64,000 bases of DNA from Ectocarpus siliculosus (lineage: Eukaryota; Sar; Phaeophyceae; Ectocarpales; Ectocarpaceae). Numbering within the stretch: the stretch's first letter is position 1; the number at the start of each line of letters is the position of its first letter. The notes beneath the pieces are model-generated. The model saw nothing but the letters and a program-made list of their open reading frames with translations, was not told the origin of the DNA and searched no databases. Made by a program: the position numbers and the translations under genes. Below are positions 2,511-56,205 of the stretch, piece by piece. The DNA lies in contig FN649758.1 of the NCBI GenBank assembly GCA_000310025.1, forward strand, positions 3,000,085 to 3,064,084. Reading direction: 5' to 3'.

Positions 2511-5500
2511 AGCGGCGGTAGCGGTGCTGACGCTCGACAACGGCGGCATCCCAAACGGTATGTGGGAACGCCCCCCGCCCTCTCCTTCCTCCGATCCGAT
2601 TTGTTTGCGCTGCCGAACCGTTGCACTTCCGGTCCACCGTGGAATAGTGCGGTAAATGTGGTAGATGTGGTAGATGTGGTAGATGTGGTAGATGGGAAGA
2701 TCTACCGAACAAGCTATGCCGTGGCTTGGCGTTGCCATCAATGCGGGCTGTAGCACCCTTCTCTTCCATTCTTCAGAGGGTAGCGGTGCTGACGCTCGAC
2801 GCTTCTTCAGGGGGTGGCGGGCGGGGCCGGGAGGAGTGTACGTCTTCGAGCGACCTACCGTCGTACCCCAAACACTCGCTCCCTCCCCGCACTCGTTGCT
2901 CAGCACCAGGCCACATAATCGAGAAGTAGATCACTGCTGTCAGTGTCGGAAAATTCGCCGGTCAATTCCATGCCCACACGGGTTGTGAACCGTTCCTGTA
3001 GAGCGTTGCTCCCCCCTGGCAGTAGTTTTTCATGTCAAGTAGCAGAAACGACCCGCAATGGAAGTTGGGATACAGCCGCGATCATGGGCGATGTTGGAGG
3101 CGGCGACGGGATATTCTGCGTAGGCGGTGGGATGTTGCGGAACTCACGCCGACCACTGTACCAGGCACATATTTTTCAAACTACTGCGAGATTAACTTAT
3201 GCTCCAAAGGTGCCATTATTATGCACTCACTCCCGCCCGTATTCCACTTCAAAGCGTCTCCCAGAAAAGTTCCAAACGAGCCGACTCGAACAAGCAGCGC
3301 GCTTTACGACAAACCAAAAAACACAAGTCCTTGGGATGCCCACGCTTTGAGCGGCCAACAATCACGATAACGCGTTTACGATGCAGGCGTCGCCCGTCGT
3401 CGTCCGCTGGCGCCGGTGGCGGCGGCGGCAAGCGCCGGGACGGCAAGGGCAAGCGCCGCCCGCAGGACAAGTTCAGCGTGGCGATGGAGAGCCTCCACGT
3501 CACGGCCGTGCCCAAGTCCCTCCCCTGCCGCAACGACGAGAGGAACCAGCTGCTGAGCTTCCTCACGAGCAACATTAAGGCCGGTGAGCGAGCAGCAGCG
3601 CAGTCGCCGCTGTGTGGTGCTTCTTCGCAAAACAGGCTCGCACGCTCCGTCGTCCCTGGCGATTTGAGGGCTTGAATATGCCCGCCGGCTGTCGCGCGTG
3701 CTCTATGGAGCCGTGTCTAGCTAGCCTTTGGCACCCCCCAGTGCCCGGGGGAGACATGCACTTTGTGGGAGAGGGGGCGCGCGCCTGGGTCTGCTTGCTG
3801 CAATCGATGAAATATACCACGTGTTGACTTGTCGCGCGTAACGGCGAGAATGGGCCCCGTGTTCTACTTTCTTTGCTCTGTTAGAATCTACTGCTGTTGA
3901 ATTGTTGCTCTTGCCCTAGCATCATCATTTCATTTTGTTTTAGTATTATTCTCAAGTATTATGAGACGGTTGTCTCCAGGTTCGCGTGTGAGCAAGTTCC
4001 CGTTTGGGATGTGTGGTGTGGATACACACCGGTTCAACCTCTGGTGAAGAGGCTGATGAGTACGGATAGTTGTGTTGTGAGTCAAGGGGGGGAGCGACCT
4101 TGTGTTGAAGCAAGGTTCAGCATCCACCCGACACTGACTCTATCTGTGGCAACACCCCGAAGGTAGATCTCCGACAGGTCATCTGACGTCACAATCTACT
4201 ACAGTCTGAGGTGGCATTCACAGTATACTTATTTCCTACCTGGTGTTCTCTCGCGTACTCGCGGTAGGGAGAAAGACAATGATCGGCAATTTAATCAGTT
4301 CATCGGGGCAGACGCCTACAGCCATTTTGTGCCGAATTGGGATTCGTTTGTAAACCCGAGTTTACTAATAAACACACACGTTTTTCGTGTGGCGAGGGCC
4401 ATGTTGGTGGCGGCGGCGGCACGATCCCGTTGGCGTCGAGTGGGGAAGCAAGGGGTGTGTTGGAACGACCAATATGCCTCGTGCTCACGATATGTGTACG
4501 TGCTTGACTTGCAAGTATCGATCACCACCATGGAAGGGATCAACTCGAACCATACGCCCCCCCGTGTGAACTGGAAATGGAGTGGGGAAGCAAGGGGTGT
4601 ATTGGAACGACCGATATGCCTCGTGCCCACGATATGTGTACGTGCTTGACTTGCAAGTACCGATCACCACCATGGACGGGATCAACTCGAACCATACGCC
4701 CCCCGTGTGAACTGGAAATTTTACCTTCAAGTGCTTAGAGTTTACTCTCAACACTACTGTGATTCATCCACGTAATGCACAAACGCGGTGGTTTCGTTTC
4801 CATCACCCCCCCCCCTTCCAGAAGCTGACGATGCTCAAACTTTGGTGTTGGTGCACAAGGTGAGGGTCGAGAGGTTGACACAGCTGAGCATGAACACAGA
4901 CGCCGCTTACCCCAATGTTCTTGTGGACCTTTTCGGTGATGATGGGGCCAGGTGGTCTGGGAAACGCGCTGTTCGTGGCCGGCATGCCGGGGACCGGGAA
5001 AACGGCGACGGCGCACGAGGTACGTTTTGGTCGGGGGGGGGCGACGGCGGCGGCGCTTTTGGACACGCGGCTTGTTGCTGCAGAGGGGACATGCGCCGTT
5101 GCCGCTGCCGTCCCCGATCTTGTGTTGTCGATGTTGGTGCGGGTGTTGGGTGTTTTCCTACCACGGCGGTGTTGGCTTCTTGGCCGGAAAGCCGTTCTGA
5201 TCTCTGCCTGCCGCCGTCGGACCCAGTACTAATTAAGCCACCCGGTCTGGGAGGCGTTCTTCGTGGTACGATCCGTGTATCCGTGACGTGTTTTTTCCGG
5301 CGGAAGGGTGACCGCCGCTGTCTACAGCGTTTGTTGGTGCTGCGCGTAGTGTGCCCGCACTCGGTGGCGTTAGTCAATCGTTTCCGCACATGACTCGTCG
5401 GGGTGTTTCTGGGTAGGACTTGGGTGGCGGGGGCACCGCAGATTCGCTCTTCGACAGCACGGCCCCAGCGACAGATCCGGCGGTCCCAACCGGCATGTCA

Positions 5501-8500
5501 CCGATCCGGTATGACCTCTTCCGCAATCCCGTATGTATCCGGTACGGTTGGCCGGATGACCGAACTCAATCCATGGCCCGCGTTGCCACTCCCGTGCTCT
5601 CGACAACGCCGGCGAGGAGCTGCAGTGCAGCATGAAACCAATGACTGCTGTCCCCTTTCCCCGCCCCATGCGTCCGTTCCCGTCGGAAGGTGGTGAGAAT
5701 CCTGAAGGGACAGCAAGCAAGAGGCCTGCTGCCGCGCTTCAAGCTGGTCGAGCTTAACGGGATGCGACTTACAGAGCCCCACCAGGTTACACATAGTGTC
5801 TTGTTCCGCGAACTGAGAGTGAGGGGGGGGTTCAGACTTGTGAATGGGTTTCTAGAGATTCGGGCGTTGTCCTCGTTGTGGTTAGCGAAAAAACCCGGGG
5901 ATGAATGAAGTGCGCATCGCTTTTCGAACATTCACACCGATCAGCCACGTCACAACACTCGTCAACAGGGTTCTGCTGTGGACACTACGGTAGACAGCAA
6001 AGACGTCGTCGTCCTCTTTCAAACTTTTTCCCAAGCTGTCCGTGTTGTCCTCGATATTGACTACTTTTCGGCGGCTTTGGTTCTGAGTTGGTGCCTTTTT
6101 TTTTTTTGTTTCTCCGCGTCCTCTCTGCTCCATCCTTTCGAGGACGCATGTTCGAGATTCTACCGCTGAGGCACACAAAATATAAGATTACGCCGCCCCC
6201 TCTCTCCCTGATTGGTCAGGCGTACCCCCAGCTGTGGATGGCCCTCTCCGGAGAGATGCTGTCGCCGAAGCGAGCGCTGTACAAGCTGGAGAAGTACTTC
6301 TCGCGGGGCGACCCCTCGAGGGAGTTCGTGGTCCTACTGGTAGACGAGCTGGACTACATGGTCAGAAATTTTGCGGCGGTGGGGAGCGGTGTAGCAGAAG
6401 CAGTGGGAGTATTGATAGGCTGGCTAGATTGGGCAAAAACATTTTTTTGCCACCATTGGCCAATATGGAAGGAGCGGTCGATCCTGTGGGAACGAAAATC
6501 CTCCGTCCTCTCGGTGATGGGTGGTCTAACCGCGAAGGCATGCAAAACATGAGTACACCCCCCCCCCCCCGGTCAATGGCGAATGGTCTAACCGCTAACT
6601 GCATCCAAAGCATGAGTACACCCCCAAACCCCTTACCCCCCGGCCGCGGCGCAGACCACCCGTAAGCAGACGGTGCTTTACAACCTGTTCGAGTGGCCCA
6701 GCAGGCGAAACGCGCGGCTGGTGGTGGTCGGCATCGCCAACACCATAGACCTGCCGGAGAGGTGCCTCCCACGTGTCAGCAGCCGGGTCACCTCGAGGCT
6801 CACGTTCGGACCCTACACGAAATTGCAGGTGGGTTACCGTGCTGCTCTTTGCGGGTTGGGGGATCCGTGGAATCAATGCGGAACCGGAATGGAATCAACT
6901 GGGCGGGGGGGGGGTCCGTGGGATCAATGCAGAACCGGAATGATATCATCTGGAATATGAATTTATTCTCGACTTAACCGTTGTAAGGGGATTGATTGAC
7001 CTGTGTTGCTTTGTTTGGCATCCAAAAAAGGCCCTTGATATGCCCTTCCCCATAATCTCCAGTTTCGAATCGGAGTGCCACTGTTCCCTCACACCCTTAC
7101 CAAAAAACCCAAGCCCGGGCTGGGGGCGCACCATCGACCTTTAGGTAAACACCGCACCTGAGGCAACCCCGCCCCAACACGTGGATCAGCCCTCGCATTG
7201 GCCATTGACTTGGTCGAGAGAGCCGAATTGCGCTGGTTGGAACGGCAGACGTTTCGGATATAGAAGGCTCCTCCTCTAACATGTTCGCCGATATGTTTGG
7301 CTTAGCAGTTGCTCGTGATGCTCGTGATCATGGACAAATTAAAGTCATCCCCTCTCCTCGTGGGTGAAAAAACTGCATTCTACGAGTGTTTGAGAGGCGG
7401 GTGCTACGGTTCTTGATCCACGGTGGAGGCGACAGAACCGCAGAAGCTTTGTATCCGAGCCGCCCACTTGCTCGAACCGGCATCCGAAACAGCTCGCCGA
7501 GATCTTGCAAGCGCGATTGGTCGAGGCGAACGCCATCGGGGGCAAGGCGAGCCCCGTCGAGGGTAAGGCGAATACCTCCGTCGAGGGCAAGGCGTTCGAC
7601 AACGGCGCGATCAACATGGCCGCGGCGAAGGTGGCGTCGTCTTCGGGAGACATGAGGATGTGCCTCAAGTACTGCCGCAGGGCTATCGAGGTACCAAGTT
7701 TAACCTTCCTTCGGTGTTGCTCGTCGCTGTCCCTGCTGCCGGGTGTCGTTGTACGTCGAGTTACCTCAAACTTCCTTCCCTCCTTTGGTTTTGCTCGCGT
7801 TGCTGCCGTTGTACGTGTTTCCGTTGTACAGCACCAGGTTTCGTAGTTGTCGTTGTCGTTGTTGCTGTTTGGTGTTTATATCGCTGTCGATGTTTTGTGT
7901 ATTGAGGTTGATGTTGACCGTGTTGTTGGTTTATAGTTTTTGAGTCTTGTTTTTTGCCAGCGTAGTGCTGCCGATGTTGGCAAATTTGTTTTGCTCGCTT
8001 CGAGGATCACTTGTTCGCGTTGGCTGGCACAGAGAACGCATGATTTAGGTGACCGCCTTTTGAAACTAGCGTCTCGACGTGGCCGTGGTGTATAAGTGGA
8101 CCGTGATGTTGTTGCATATAGCCATGTACCACTCCTATTTTTTTCCGTTCTCTTTCAAGGGCTCCCTTTTTGAGCCCCACCCGCGAGAACGGGCTGGTTT
8201 TGGGCGACAAGCTCGACTGACATAAAAGTGAAAACAAAGAAGCCGAAGAGTTCACGTATCCAAAACCTTGGTAGTTGCCCCGGCCTTGTAACCGTGGGCA
8301 GTCAAAAGCCAATTGCCCGCGGGTTGGTAGACCAGCAGCACATCGTTGTGTGTTCAGGGGTGACAGGTTGCGGTGACTACTGAGAGATGACGCTTTTTAT
8401 GGCGGCGATACCTTCCCTACGGCTATGTGTAGTAGAGAACATCCGTGCGAGACACGGCAACAAAGGCCCTAGCGTTACGGGTATGTCTGCTAAAGATTGA

Positions 8501-11500
8501 ACCTAGCGACGCCCCCCGTCTCCTGGGCACCATTGCTCGATGGTCACACTGCGAATGCAGGCATCATGTACGCCCCCCCCCCCCCCCCATAGTTGGGGAG
8601 TGTGAGTTGTACAGGAAGGAAAAAAAAGATCTCCAGGAAGAAATGAGACAGAGAGGGTGTGACATGGACAAGTTTGGTAAATTAGACAACAGCGAAAAAA
8701 CGATCGCGATAATTGGGGATAGATGGTGGGCACAAGAGGCCCTAGAGGACGGGGATAAGATGTGCAAGAAATTTTTATGGAGTTTGTGGCAGAAACGTAA
8801 AGAGCTCCCAAATGTTGGTGGTGTCTTTAGTAGGTGTAGGAACGGTGCTCCGTCTCGAAAGGGACGCGTGGTCAATGGTCAAATGATTACGGCAAGCAGC
8901 AAATGAGTACGCCCCCCCCCGGGCGTGCGCGAACGCTAAATAAACCCCAGGTGTGCAAGGCGAGGGTGGAATCCGCCAAAGAGGACGGCAATGGGGACAA
9001 GGTAAGGCAGTGCTGCTAAATAGAGCCATTCATGGCCGAATGATGCGTCTTCCCGTTGCTTGCCGAACCTGTTGGTTTCAGCCAATAGGAGGACAGGTGC
9101 CGGAGCTGTTCCGAAAGGTGGTTCACTCTTTGTTTTTTTTCCTTGCCGCGCTTTGTTGTGTTTTTTCTCGTACAGCGATTTTGTTTATATCAGTTTTTTT
9201 TTTCCCCTTGGGTTGACTCAGCGGTTGTCTACCCATGACGCTCTGCTGGGCAACACCCGAGGACCACGGGGCCCCTTCGCCAATCACTGACATCGACAAC
9301 GGGGTGTGGTTAGTGGTGGCGTCGACTGCGCTTATCCAATGAAATTTCGACTGCGCTTATCCAATGAAATTTCGACTGCGCTTAACCAATGAAATTTCGA
9401 CTGCGCTTAACCAATGAAATTTCGATTGCGCTTAACCAATGAAATTTCGCCAGCCTCGGTGCGGCTCAAAACGCTTCTTCTGTCGTCACAAAGTTCGTGT
9501 GTTGCGTCTTTGTGTCGTGTTACTCTCCACAATCCAACCCGGCTCGTCGTCACGAAACGAACGCACCGCAGGTGTCTTGGGAGGTCTCTGTGAAGGACGT
9601 TCACGTTGCGGTTCGGGAGATCAACGAGCAGGCTCACCTGGTGGCCGTGAGGGACTCGGCGCCCCAGGAGAGGCTGCTGCTCGTGGCCATCACCAACGAG
9701 GTTCACCTCGGGGGAAAGGTGGGTTCACCTCGGGGGAACAGTAGGTTCACCTCGGGATAACCTAGGGATAAAATTTTAACCTCGGGGGAACGGTAGGTTC
9801 ACCTCGGGATACGTAGGTGCAGAGTCGTTTTTGCGTTGATTAATTCGTCAAGGCTTGGAATCGCTGGTGTGACAAGGCGGTGTTTACGTTCTTTTGTTTA
9901 GCTTGGTGTCATCACTTCCTGCATTAGCCTTTTCTCTCGCTCGCTCGCTCGCTATTGTTGTCTCCCTCGCTCTATCACGCTCACCAACTCTCAGGGTGCG
10001 ACGAGCATAGACTACCATCGACGGCCCTTTGAAGGACCAGGCCGGCGCGGCGGCGTCTTCCAACAGGCTCGCCTGCCCGAGTCTCTTTATCTCTACAATA
10101 GTGTCTGCGCTCGTAGCAGGGCTGGTGACCGCAACGAATGAAGCTTAAGCTTCACCTCGACTGAAACTCTAGTAGACGTAGCGCGCAGCAGTCGGTGTGC
10201 AAGTGCAGATGACGGCAAGAAGATTGTCGTGTTCGCCCCATCGTTTCCCTCGGGAAGGACTGTGGTGGGGAGCAACGAAACTTTTAACACACACCAGCAT
10301 TGATAGATATCCTTCTTTTGATCCTGAGCACCATAAACGACCGCAGCGTGATTCGCTGGCTTTGTCCGATCGTCTTTCCGGGCCTTGAAGCCTGTTCTTG
10401 CTCAGAAAAAATCTTCGTCGTTTCATCGCCGCCGCGACCCTTAAGTCCCCCCCCTCGCCTTTTAACCTCGATCCCCTCTCTTGCTGCCTGTCCTGTGTGT
10501 GCTTTGGTAGGGCGTGGTGGATATGGACGACGTTCGGACGCGGATGGAAGGGATCTGCAGGGCGCACCCGAACGGGCCGAGGATGCCCAACGTGACCACT
10601 ATCTTGGAGATGATATCAAGGTAGTAGATACCGTGGTAGGATCTTCGGCGCCTCGCCCGTCCCGTACCGGTTTTGAAGCAATACTGTAACCGTTCCTCCC
10701 TTGCTACCGTACACGCTTTCGACAAGAAGGAAACAAAAGACAGAAAGAAAGCGCAGGCACGCGGGGAGCTTCTGTGGGAAACTAACCCACCGACCGGTGG
10801 GCAAATGTATTCACCTACGACACCAAGTGTATTCACCTACGACACCAAATCGACGTTCTGTCGAGGAACTCGAAAGTCGAGGATACGAAAGAGCACCCAA
10901 CGCAATCGTGCATGCAGCAGCGATTGATTCTTCATGCTGTGCTATGCATTCATAGGGGTAGACTTGCGTCCCGCGTGCAACCTTTCCACATGCCGCACGA
11001 AATAAGTACTGCACAAGAGAAGTACACCAGCAGTCTAAGCAGGTTTTTCTAACTAAGCAAATATACTGGGTATTGTCTAGAATCGATTAGGTTGGGGTTG
11101 GGGTTAGGCTTAGGCTTAGGGTCTGAATGCCCCCTCCCTGGCCTTTTTTTCGTGATAGCCTTACTTTCTTTGCCTAGGCTGCAGTCCAAGTATACCAAAC
11201 ACACACTCTTGTGCATTCGCGTGCTCGTCCGAAGACCGGCTTGCTCTAATGGAGGGGGAAAGTGATCCGACCCCATCCGGCGCGGCCGGCATGCAAGCTG
11301 AGGACGGGTGCCACGCATCAACCGTAACTGTGCAATAGTGCGGGCAATACCACACACCCCGCCCCCCCTTCTCCCTGTCGCCGGCCAACGCCCGCTGATG
11401 TTTTGAGTACCGAGAAGCCGCACGAGAGCGCGGAGGCGGGCTGGGTGGAGTCTACGGTACGCTGGCGCAAGATACCACCCCCCCCCCCCCGGAACAATTT

Positions 11501-29162: not shown

Positions 29163-47052
<17,890 letters not shown>

Positions 47053-56079: not shown

Positions 56080-56205
56080 CGGGGGAGGGGGGTGTACTCA
56101 TAGTCGCGCATGCCGCAGTCGTTAGACCATTGACCTCGCATCCCTACAAAGCCGGGACGGAGCACGCCGGGTTCTCACTGGACCAGGCTCTCACATCACC
56201 AAGCG
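56080..56205 (-). mobile_element. Short retroelement-tail repeat, antisense, with C-run tail
   Basis: Read on the minus strand: GCCTGGTCCAGTGAGAACCC, CGTGCTCCGTCCCGGCTT, GAGGTCAATGGTCTAACGAC, GCGGCATGCGCGACTATGAG, TACACCCCCC. The complete tail, including the C run, identifies the 3' end of the family. Confidence 0.75.

Follow-up and report, generated by a model that had tools for sequence, protein, structure and literature searches.

A putative LINE 3' end occupies most of a short ORC1 intron in Ectocarpus siliculosus and probably entered an intron that already existed

Introduction

The origin of new introns is an open question. In the parts of the literature drawn on here, 35 intron gains are attributed to transposon insertion (PMC3443670), and introners are recognized by the presence of at least four similar introns per genome, with families that lack target-site duplications and with imprecise gains (PMC9860276); the gains in these two sources are often linked to DNA-type elements. 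The main text of PMC9860276 contains no mention of Ectocarpus, brown alga or Phaeophyceae. For Ectocarpus itself, the sections of PMC12477816 used here describe intronic elements as ubiquitous, with 81% of genes having one or more genic insertions, and report 16,418 LINE/RTE-X copies, LINEs that are often 5' truncated, a non-autonomous family of ~600 bp whose 3' end is conserved with RTE-X, and a median length of 524 bp for autosomal introns.

Here we analyze an intron of the replication gene ORC1 in a stretch of 64,000 nucleotides of E. siliculosus DNA (the window). The element that fills most of this intron resembles the brown-algal LINEs (RTE-X, RTE, CRE) of those sections of PMC12477816 in being dispersed and 5' truncated, with many intronic copies, but its ORF is represented in the window by the C-terminal part alone, and a look for reverse transcriptase or endonuclease domains with three element peptides gave no Pfam family. 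As with the introners and transposon-gained introns of the portions of PMC9860276 and PMC3443670 cited above, the intron consists mostly of a repeated element and lies in a conserved coding region. It differs from introners in having neither a target-site duplication nor terminal repeats, and in that the window contains no set of near-identical introns, the other mapped copies sitting in long introns.

Results

Boundaries of the ORC1 intron

The ORC1 gene lies on the forward strand of the window, and six of its introns were located through their exon edges. These introns, and the two exons that flank the intron of interest (D), are as follows.

3584-4951, + strand, ORC1 intron A, 1368 nt
5020-5689, + strand, ORC1 intron B, 670 nt
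5786-6219, + strand, ORC1 intron C, 434 nt, donor GTTACA
6220-6360, + strand, upstream exon, AYPQLW...VLLVDELDYM, with Walker B
6361-6654, + strand, ORC1 intron D, 294 nt, phase 0, GTCAGA...GCGCAG
6655-6828, + strand, downstream exon, beginning TTRKQTVLYNLFEWP...
6829-7492, + strand, ORC1 intron E, 664 nt
7691-8950, + strand, ORC1 intron F, 1260 nt, with two element ends inside

The translated exons match ORC1 chains in the PDB (best E 1.4e-54). The first-pass annotation had placed a 294-nt intron between DELDYM and TTRKQ, and the protein bears this out: removal of intron D gives a gap-free junction with human ORC1 (DELDYMTTRKQ against DELDLLWTHKQ), while read-through translation meets a stop codon within the intron. 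The residue at the junction is Thr here, Trp in human, Val in yeast and Cys in fly in the ORC1 alignments. The intron position is one that we take to be just after the Walker B motif, in agreement with the earlier remark that a conserved part of ORC1 is interrupted. Intron D thus has GT and AG at its ends, and taking it out re-establishes the conserved protein. With its boundaries set by protein homology, 6361-6654 is, as far as sequence can tell, a normal spliceosomal intron of the GT-AG type in a functional ORC1 gene, and splicing would run from GTCAGA to GCGCAG. We consider it very improbable that the region is misassembled, or that the insertion inactivates this copy of ORC1 and leaves a pseudogene. 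The assembly is gapped, with two N runs in the window, but in and near the AAA+ region the exons have an open, conserved reading frame (51% identity to human ORC1 over 171 aligned residues), and GT and AG sit exactly where the protein requires them.

Intron D is the shortest of the six mapped introns (range 294-1368 nt). Its donor, GTCAGA, had been called weak; the donor sequence was correctly read, but its weakness does not discriminate, given the GTTACA of intron C. The pyrimidine fraction at positions -23 to -4 is 0.65, compared with 0.45-0.80 in the other five ORC1 introns, so that the donor and the proportion of pyrimidines near the acceptor both fall within the spread of the gene. The RNA fold of intron D is not more stable than that of shuffled sequences (z 1.04; 170/200 fold as well), and no tandem repeats were reported at 6300-6700.

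A dispersed element with a poly-C tail

The window contains several copies of an element whose tail reads GGTCTAAC..GGCATGC..ATGAGTAC, followed by poly-C. The principal copies are the following.

1-636, + strand, longest element copy in the window, C-terminal part of the ORF (1-600), then the poly-C tail
6415-6570, + strand, element 3' end in intron D, with ORF end, 3' tail and C13
6571-6625, + strand, second tail copy in intron D, abutting the poly-C of the first tail and ending in C5
within 7691-8950, + strand, element ends in ORC1 intron F, with a C16 ending at 8588, an ORF copy at 8589-8903 and a C9 ending at 8920
38353-38396, + strand, diverged tail on the sense strand of an intron (37531-38447) of an FtsH-like gene

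The tail core occurs six times in the window, on both strands, with at most three mismatches, where shuffled sequences would be expected to give 0.14 occurrences; a looser scan of the window finds eight places, both tails of intron D among them. The ORF that covers the first 600 bases of the window stops just before the tail and a long poly-C. The copies at 1-636, 6415-6570, 6571-6625, 8589-8920 and 31358-31424, and others, share a common 3' end and differ in their 5' starts. These common 3' ends, the varying 5' starts and the ORF that reaches the tail suggest that the element is a LINE.

Further tail copies are seen at 41445-41465 and 56108-56128 on the reverse strand and at 31358-31424 on the forward strand, and the tail subtypes seem to number two (..TAACCGCTAAGG.. 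and ..TAACGACTGCGG..). Two scans of viral_contigs with the tail pattern gave no match; in genome_contigs, five bacterial records carried one match apiece, which we took as chance. Protein patterns of the element picked out 5 and 224 stretches in viral_contigs, none of which was confirmed as a relative, and the same was true of ORC1, with 53 pattern-matching stretches in viral_contigs and 52 in genome_contigs.

Element content of intron D

A BLAST comparison of intron D with the window pairs 6436-6570 with 466-620 (71.5% identity, E 6e-20), and the two tails within the intron align with one another at 88% across 42 columns. The poly-C-tailed fragment and second tail that had been noticed on first inspection are therefore real, and the second tail does end near the acceptor, its C5 finishing at 6625, 29 nt upstream. 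Over 6415-6557, 114 of 137 ungapped columns are identical to copy 1-636 (83%, K2P 0.19). This degree of divergence does not sustain the description of the intron as young, and two copies cannot date an insertion. At the protein level, translated intron D scores 82 against the ORF at 1-597, above 1000/1000 shuffles, and against the second ORF copy (8601) it reaches a score also attained by 149/1000 shuffles. The tblastn alignment to the element extends over 6364-6546 (E 5e-5). Judged by these matches, at least 6415-6625 (211/294 nt, 72%) represents the 3' end of the element in sense orientation. The earlier statement that the intron is almost entirely element is borne out for this part; it is not borne out for the last 29 nt or for 6364-6414, where the identity to the copy at 1-636 is 30/49, a value reached by 261/1991 unrelated 51-mers. 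What remains as non-element sequence is 83 nt (54 + 29) if the firm boundary is used and 32 nt (3 + 29) if the generous one is used.

The difference between these boundaries depends on the first 54 nt (6361-6414), for which similarity to the element is suggestive at best. The match to the element copy declines in the 5' direction, with 70/79 identical columns in 6475-6557, 44/58 in 6415-6474 and the 30/49 just given in 6364-6414. Taken alone, the last step does not reach significance (Fisher p 0.14), but the drop relative to the whole remaining match does (p 0.0026), and a comparison of the window's two ORF copies with each other gives no such 5' drop (34/57 and 33/56). When the DNA alignment is extended from an anchor in the element toward the donor, 58/300 shuffles and 5/299 random stretches do as well; if permitted, the extension continues into the exon to 6350, which signals compositional similarity. 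The anchored protein extension is equaled in 353 and 327 of 2000 cases, and the scores of the first 30 and the first 22 residues of intron D alone in 292 and 534 of 1000 shuffles, respectively. A frame-restricted ungapped block against copy 1 is reached by 211/5000 shuffles and by 19/865 window peptides, the corresponding block against copy 8601 by 571/5000, and the sum of both copies by 226/5000. Global alignment of the 5' part gives a similarity reached by 435/2000 dinucleotide shuffles and 33/3986 random stretches. The controls are thus split, several lying at the 1-4% level while composition-preserving shuffles reach the score more often. The open frame through intron D says little, because runs of 63 codons without a stop occur often in the window (967/4901). 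As regards the coincidence of element and intron edges that is looked for in introners, the match is firm from 6415 only and suggestive to 6364.

Target-site duplication and the 3' splice region

Around the copy in intron D, four comparisons covering both the creation of the intron by the element and insertion into an older intron gave no target-site duplication beyond shuffles. At the candidate edges, the longest words in common measure 5, 6, 5 and 4 nt, lengths that 471, 105, 171 and 819 of 1000 shuffles attain; the first two of these values belong to the exon edges. Target-site duplication does not separate creation from insertion. LINE copies without a visible target-site duplication are known, so that its absence does not exclude a LINE here.

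The remaining sequence at the 3' side of the intron contains the splice acceptor.

6626-6654, + strand, last 29 nt of intron D, with a C-rich stretch, a branch-point-like CTTAC (yTnAy; A at 6635) and the acceptor

Between CTTAC and the AG lie C6 and then 13 nt dominated by G and C; these last 13 nt (GGCCGCGGCGCAG) duplicate neither the tail nor the exon. Part of the C-rich stretch at 6626-6641 may be decayed tail. The proposal that the C-rich element tail serves as the polypyrimidine tract is not supported by this arrangement: the C13 of the first tail ends 84 nt before the acceptor, and near the acceptor there are only the short second tail and 6626-6641.

Discussion

Origin of intron D

We regard it as probable that the element was inserted into an intron that was already present. 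According to this account, a 5'-truncated, sense-oriented LINE-like element would have entered an older intron not far upstream of its 3' splice site; a second, very short copy would have joined the poly-C of the first by nested insertion or template jumping; and the element fragment would now be transcribed into the pre-mRNA and spliced out together with the remaining intron sequence. The 3' splice region of the older intron would survive as the final 29 nt, with CTTAC, C6 and AG. The order of these events and the age of intron D are what we infer from the present arrangement. Insertion is favored because the match is firm only from about 6415, so that the remaining 54 nt on the 5' side and 29 nt on the 3' side could stem from a short older intron, because no outstanding target-site duplication is found at the exon edges, and because intron F and the FtsH-like intron show a similar arrangement. 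The intronic elements, LINE truncation and RTE-X copy number described for Ectocarpus in the cited sections of PMC12477816 also support it.

Several observations count against insertion. An older intron of ~83 nt would be short in comparison with the other ORC1 introns (434-1368 nt) and with the Ectocarpus median given above, and an additional deletion may be needed as well. Weak signs carry the element to nucleotide 4 of intron D, the identities of 6364-6414 and 6415-6474 are not significantly different, and insertion, too, lacks a target-site duplication. The alternative is that the element created the intron, as had been suggested when the intron was first noticed: it would have landed in an ORC1 exon, with the donor at or near its left edge and the AG in its right flank, and Thr would have replaced the old residue. 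The intron is in phase 0, and the change would be an in-frame swap of one residue at a position where human (W), yeast (V) and fly (C) differ. Imprecise gains from transposable elements are described in the consulted parts of PMC9860276 and PMC3443670, and a non-autonomous copy that carries only a LINE 3' end, like RTEX-N1 in those of PMC12477816, would allow the first 54 nt to be element despite their lack of a match to the LINE ORF. The size of the remainder matters here: 83 nt suffice for a short former intron, whereas the 32 nt left by an element that reaches nucleotide 4 are too short for one, so that either the element made the intron or a deletion followed. However, by shuffles the first 54 nt are not significantly element (58/300 and 435/2000, as above), no target-site duplication is found, and the final 13 nt have no counterpart in tail or exon. 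The GTC of the donor could derive from the old exon, where it would encode the Val that yeast ORC1 has, but this is no special sign, because every phase-0 GT intron "begins with Val". With similarity firm only from 6415 and 54 + 29 nt remaining, we consider creation of the intron by the element possible but on the unlikely side.

A deletion could also have shaped the 5' edge. If the element entered a longer old intron and the sequence between the donor and the interior of the element was later lost, an element lying close to the donor and a short intron would both be accounted for without any intron gain, and the 3' arrangement would be that of intron F. This history requires an extra event of which there is no direct trace, and we judge it quite improbable.

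If it were true that a LINE tail makes or completes an intron in a core replication gene, this would constitute a retroelement route to introns. Intron D is more likely an ordinary insertion of an element in an existing intron, and the aspect of wider interest is the pattern of tails near acceptors.

Tails close to other acceptors

In three of the introns mapped, a sense-strand tail lies no more than 51 nt from the acceptor: intron D, intron F (1260 nt), in which the last tail lies 30 nt before the acceptor and an earlier one at 362 nt, and the FtsH-like intron (917 nt), in which the tail ends 51 nt before it. Introns F and FtsH-like are long, otherwise unlike intron D, and far too long to be element alone. 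Under uniform placement, the combined p value is 0.011 for the last tails of intron F and the FtsH-like intron and 0.012 for five tails in three introns; these values are post hoc, are based on few cases, and omit copy 1-636, which is followed by an N run, as well as the two antisense copies (41445 and 56108). A local tendency of the element to insert a little upstream of 3' splice sites that already exist may therefore be at work, and intron D becomes less exceptional if insertion near existing acceptors is as common as it seems. A much stronger statement would be that the tail, recurring 29-51 nt upstream of 3' splice sites, targets acceptors or supplies acceptor function, and that a 5'-truncated copy in an ORC1 exon also became a complete intron, that is, LINE-driven gain in an otherwise intron-dense lineage; we find this combination doubtful.

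The tails also adjoin other copies. In intron D the second tail begins directly after the C13 of the first (6570/6571), and in intron F the ORF copy begins directly after a C16 (8588/8589). Both joins would be compatible with new copies landing on the poly-C of an older one, or with a reverse transcriptase that jumped between templates. The two N runs of the window, at 723-823 and about 36989-37088 (200 N), each lie beside a long tract of C (657-723 and 36973-36988, respectively), as though the assembly had halted at poly-C.
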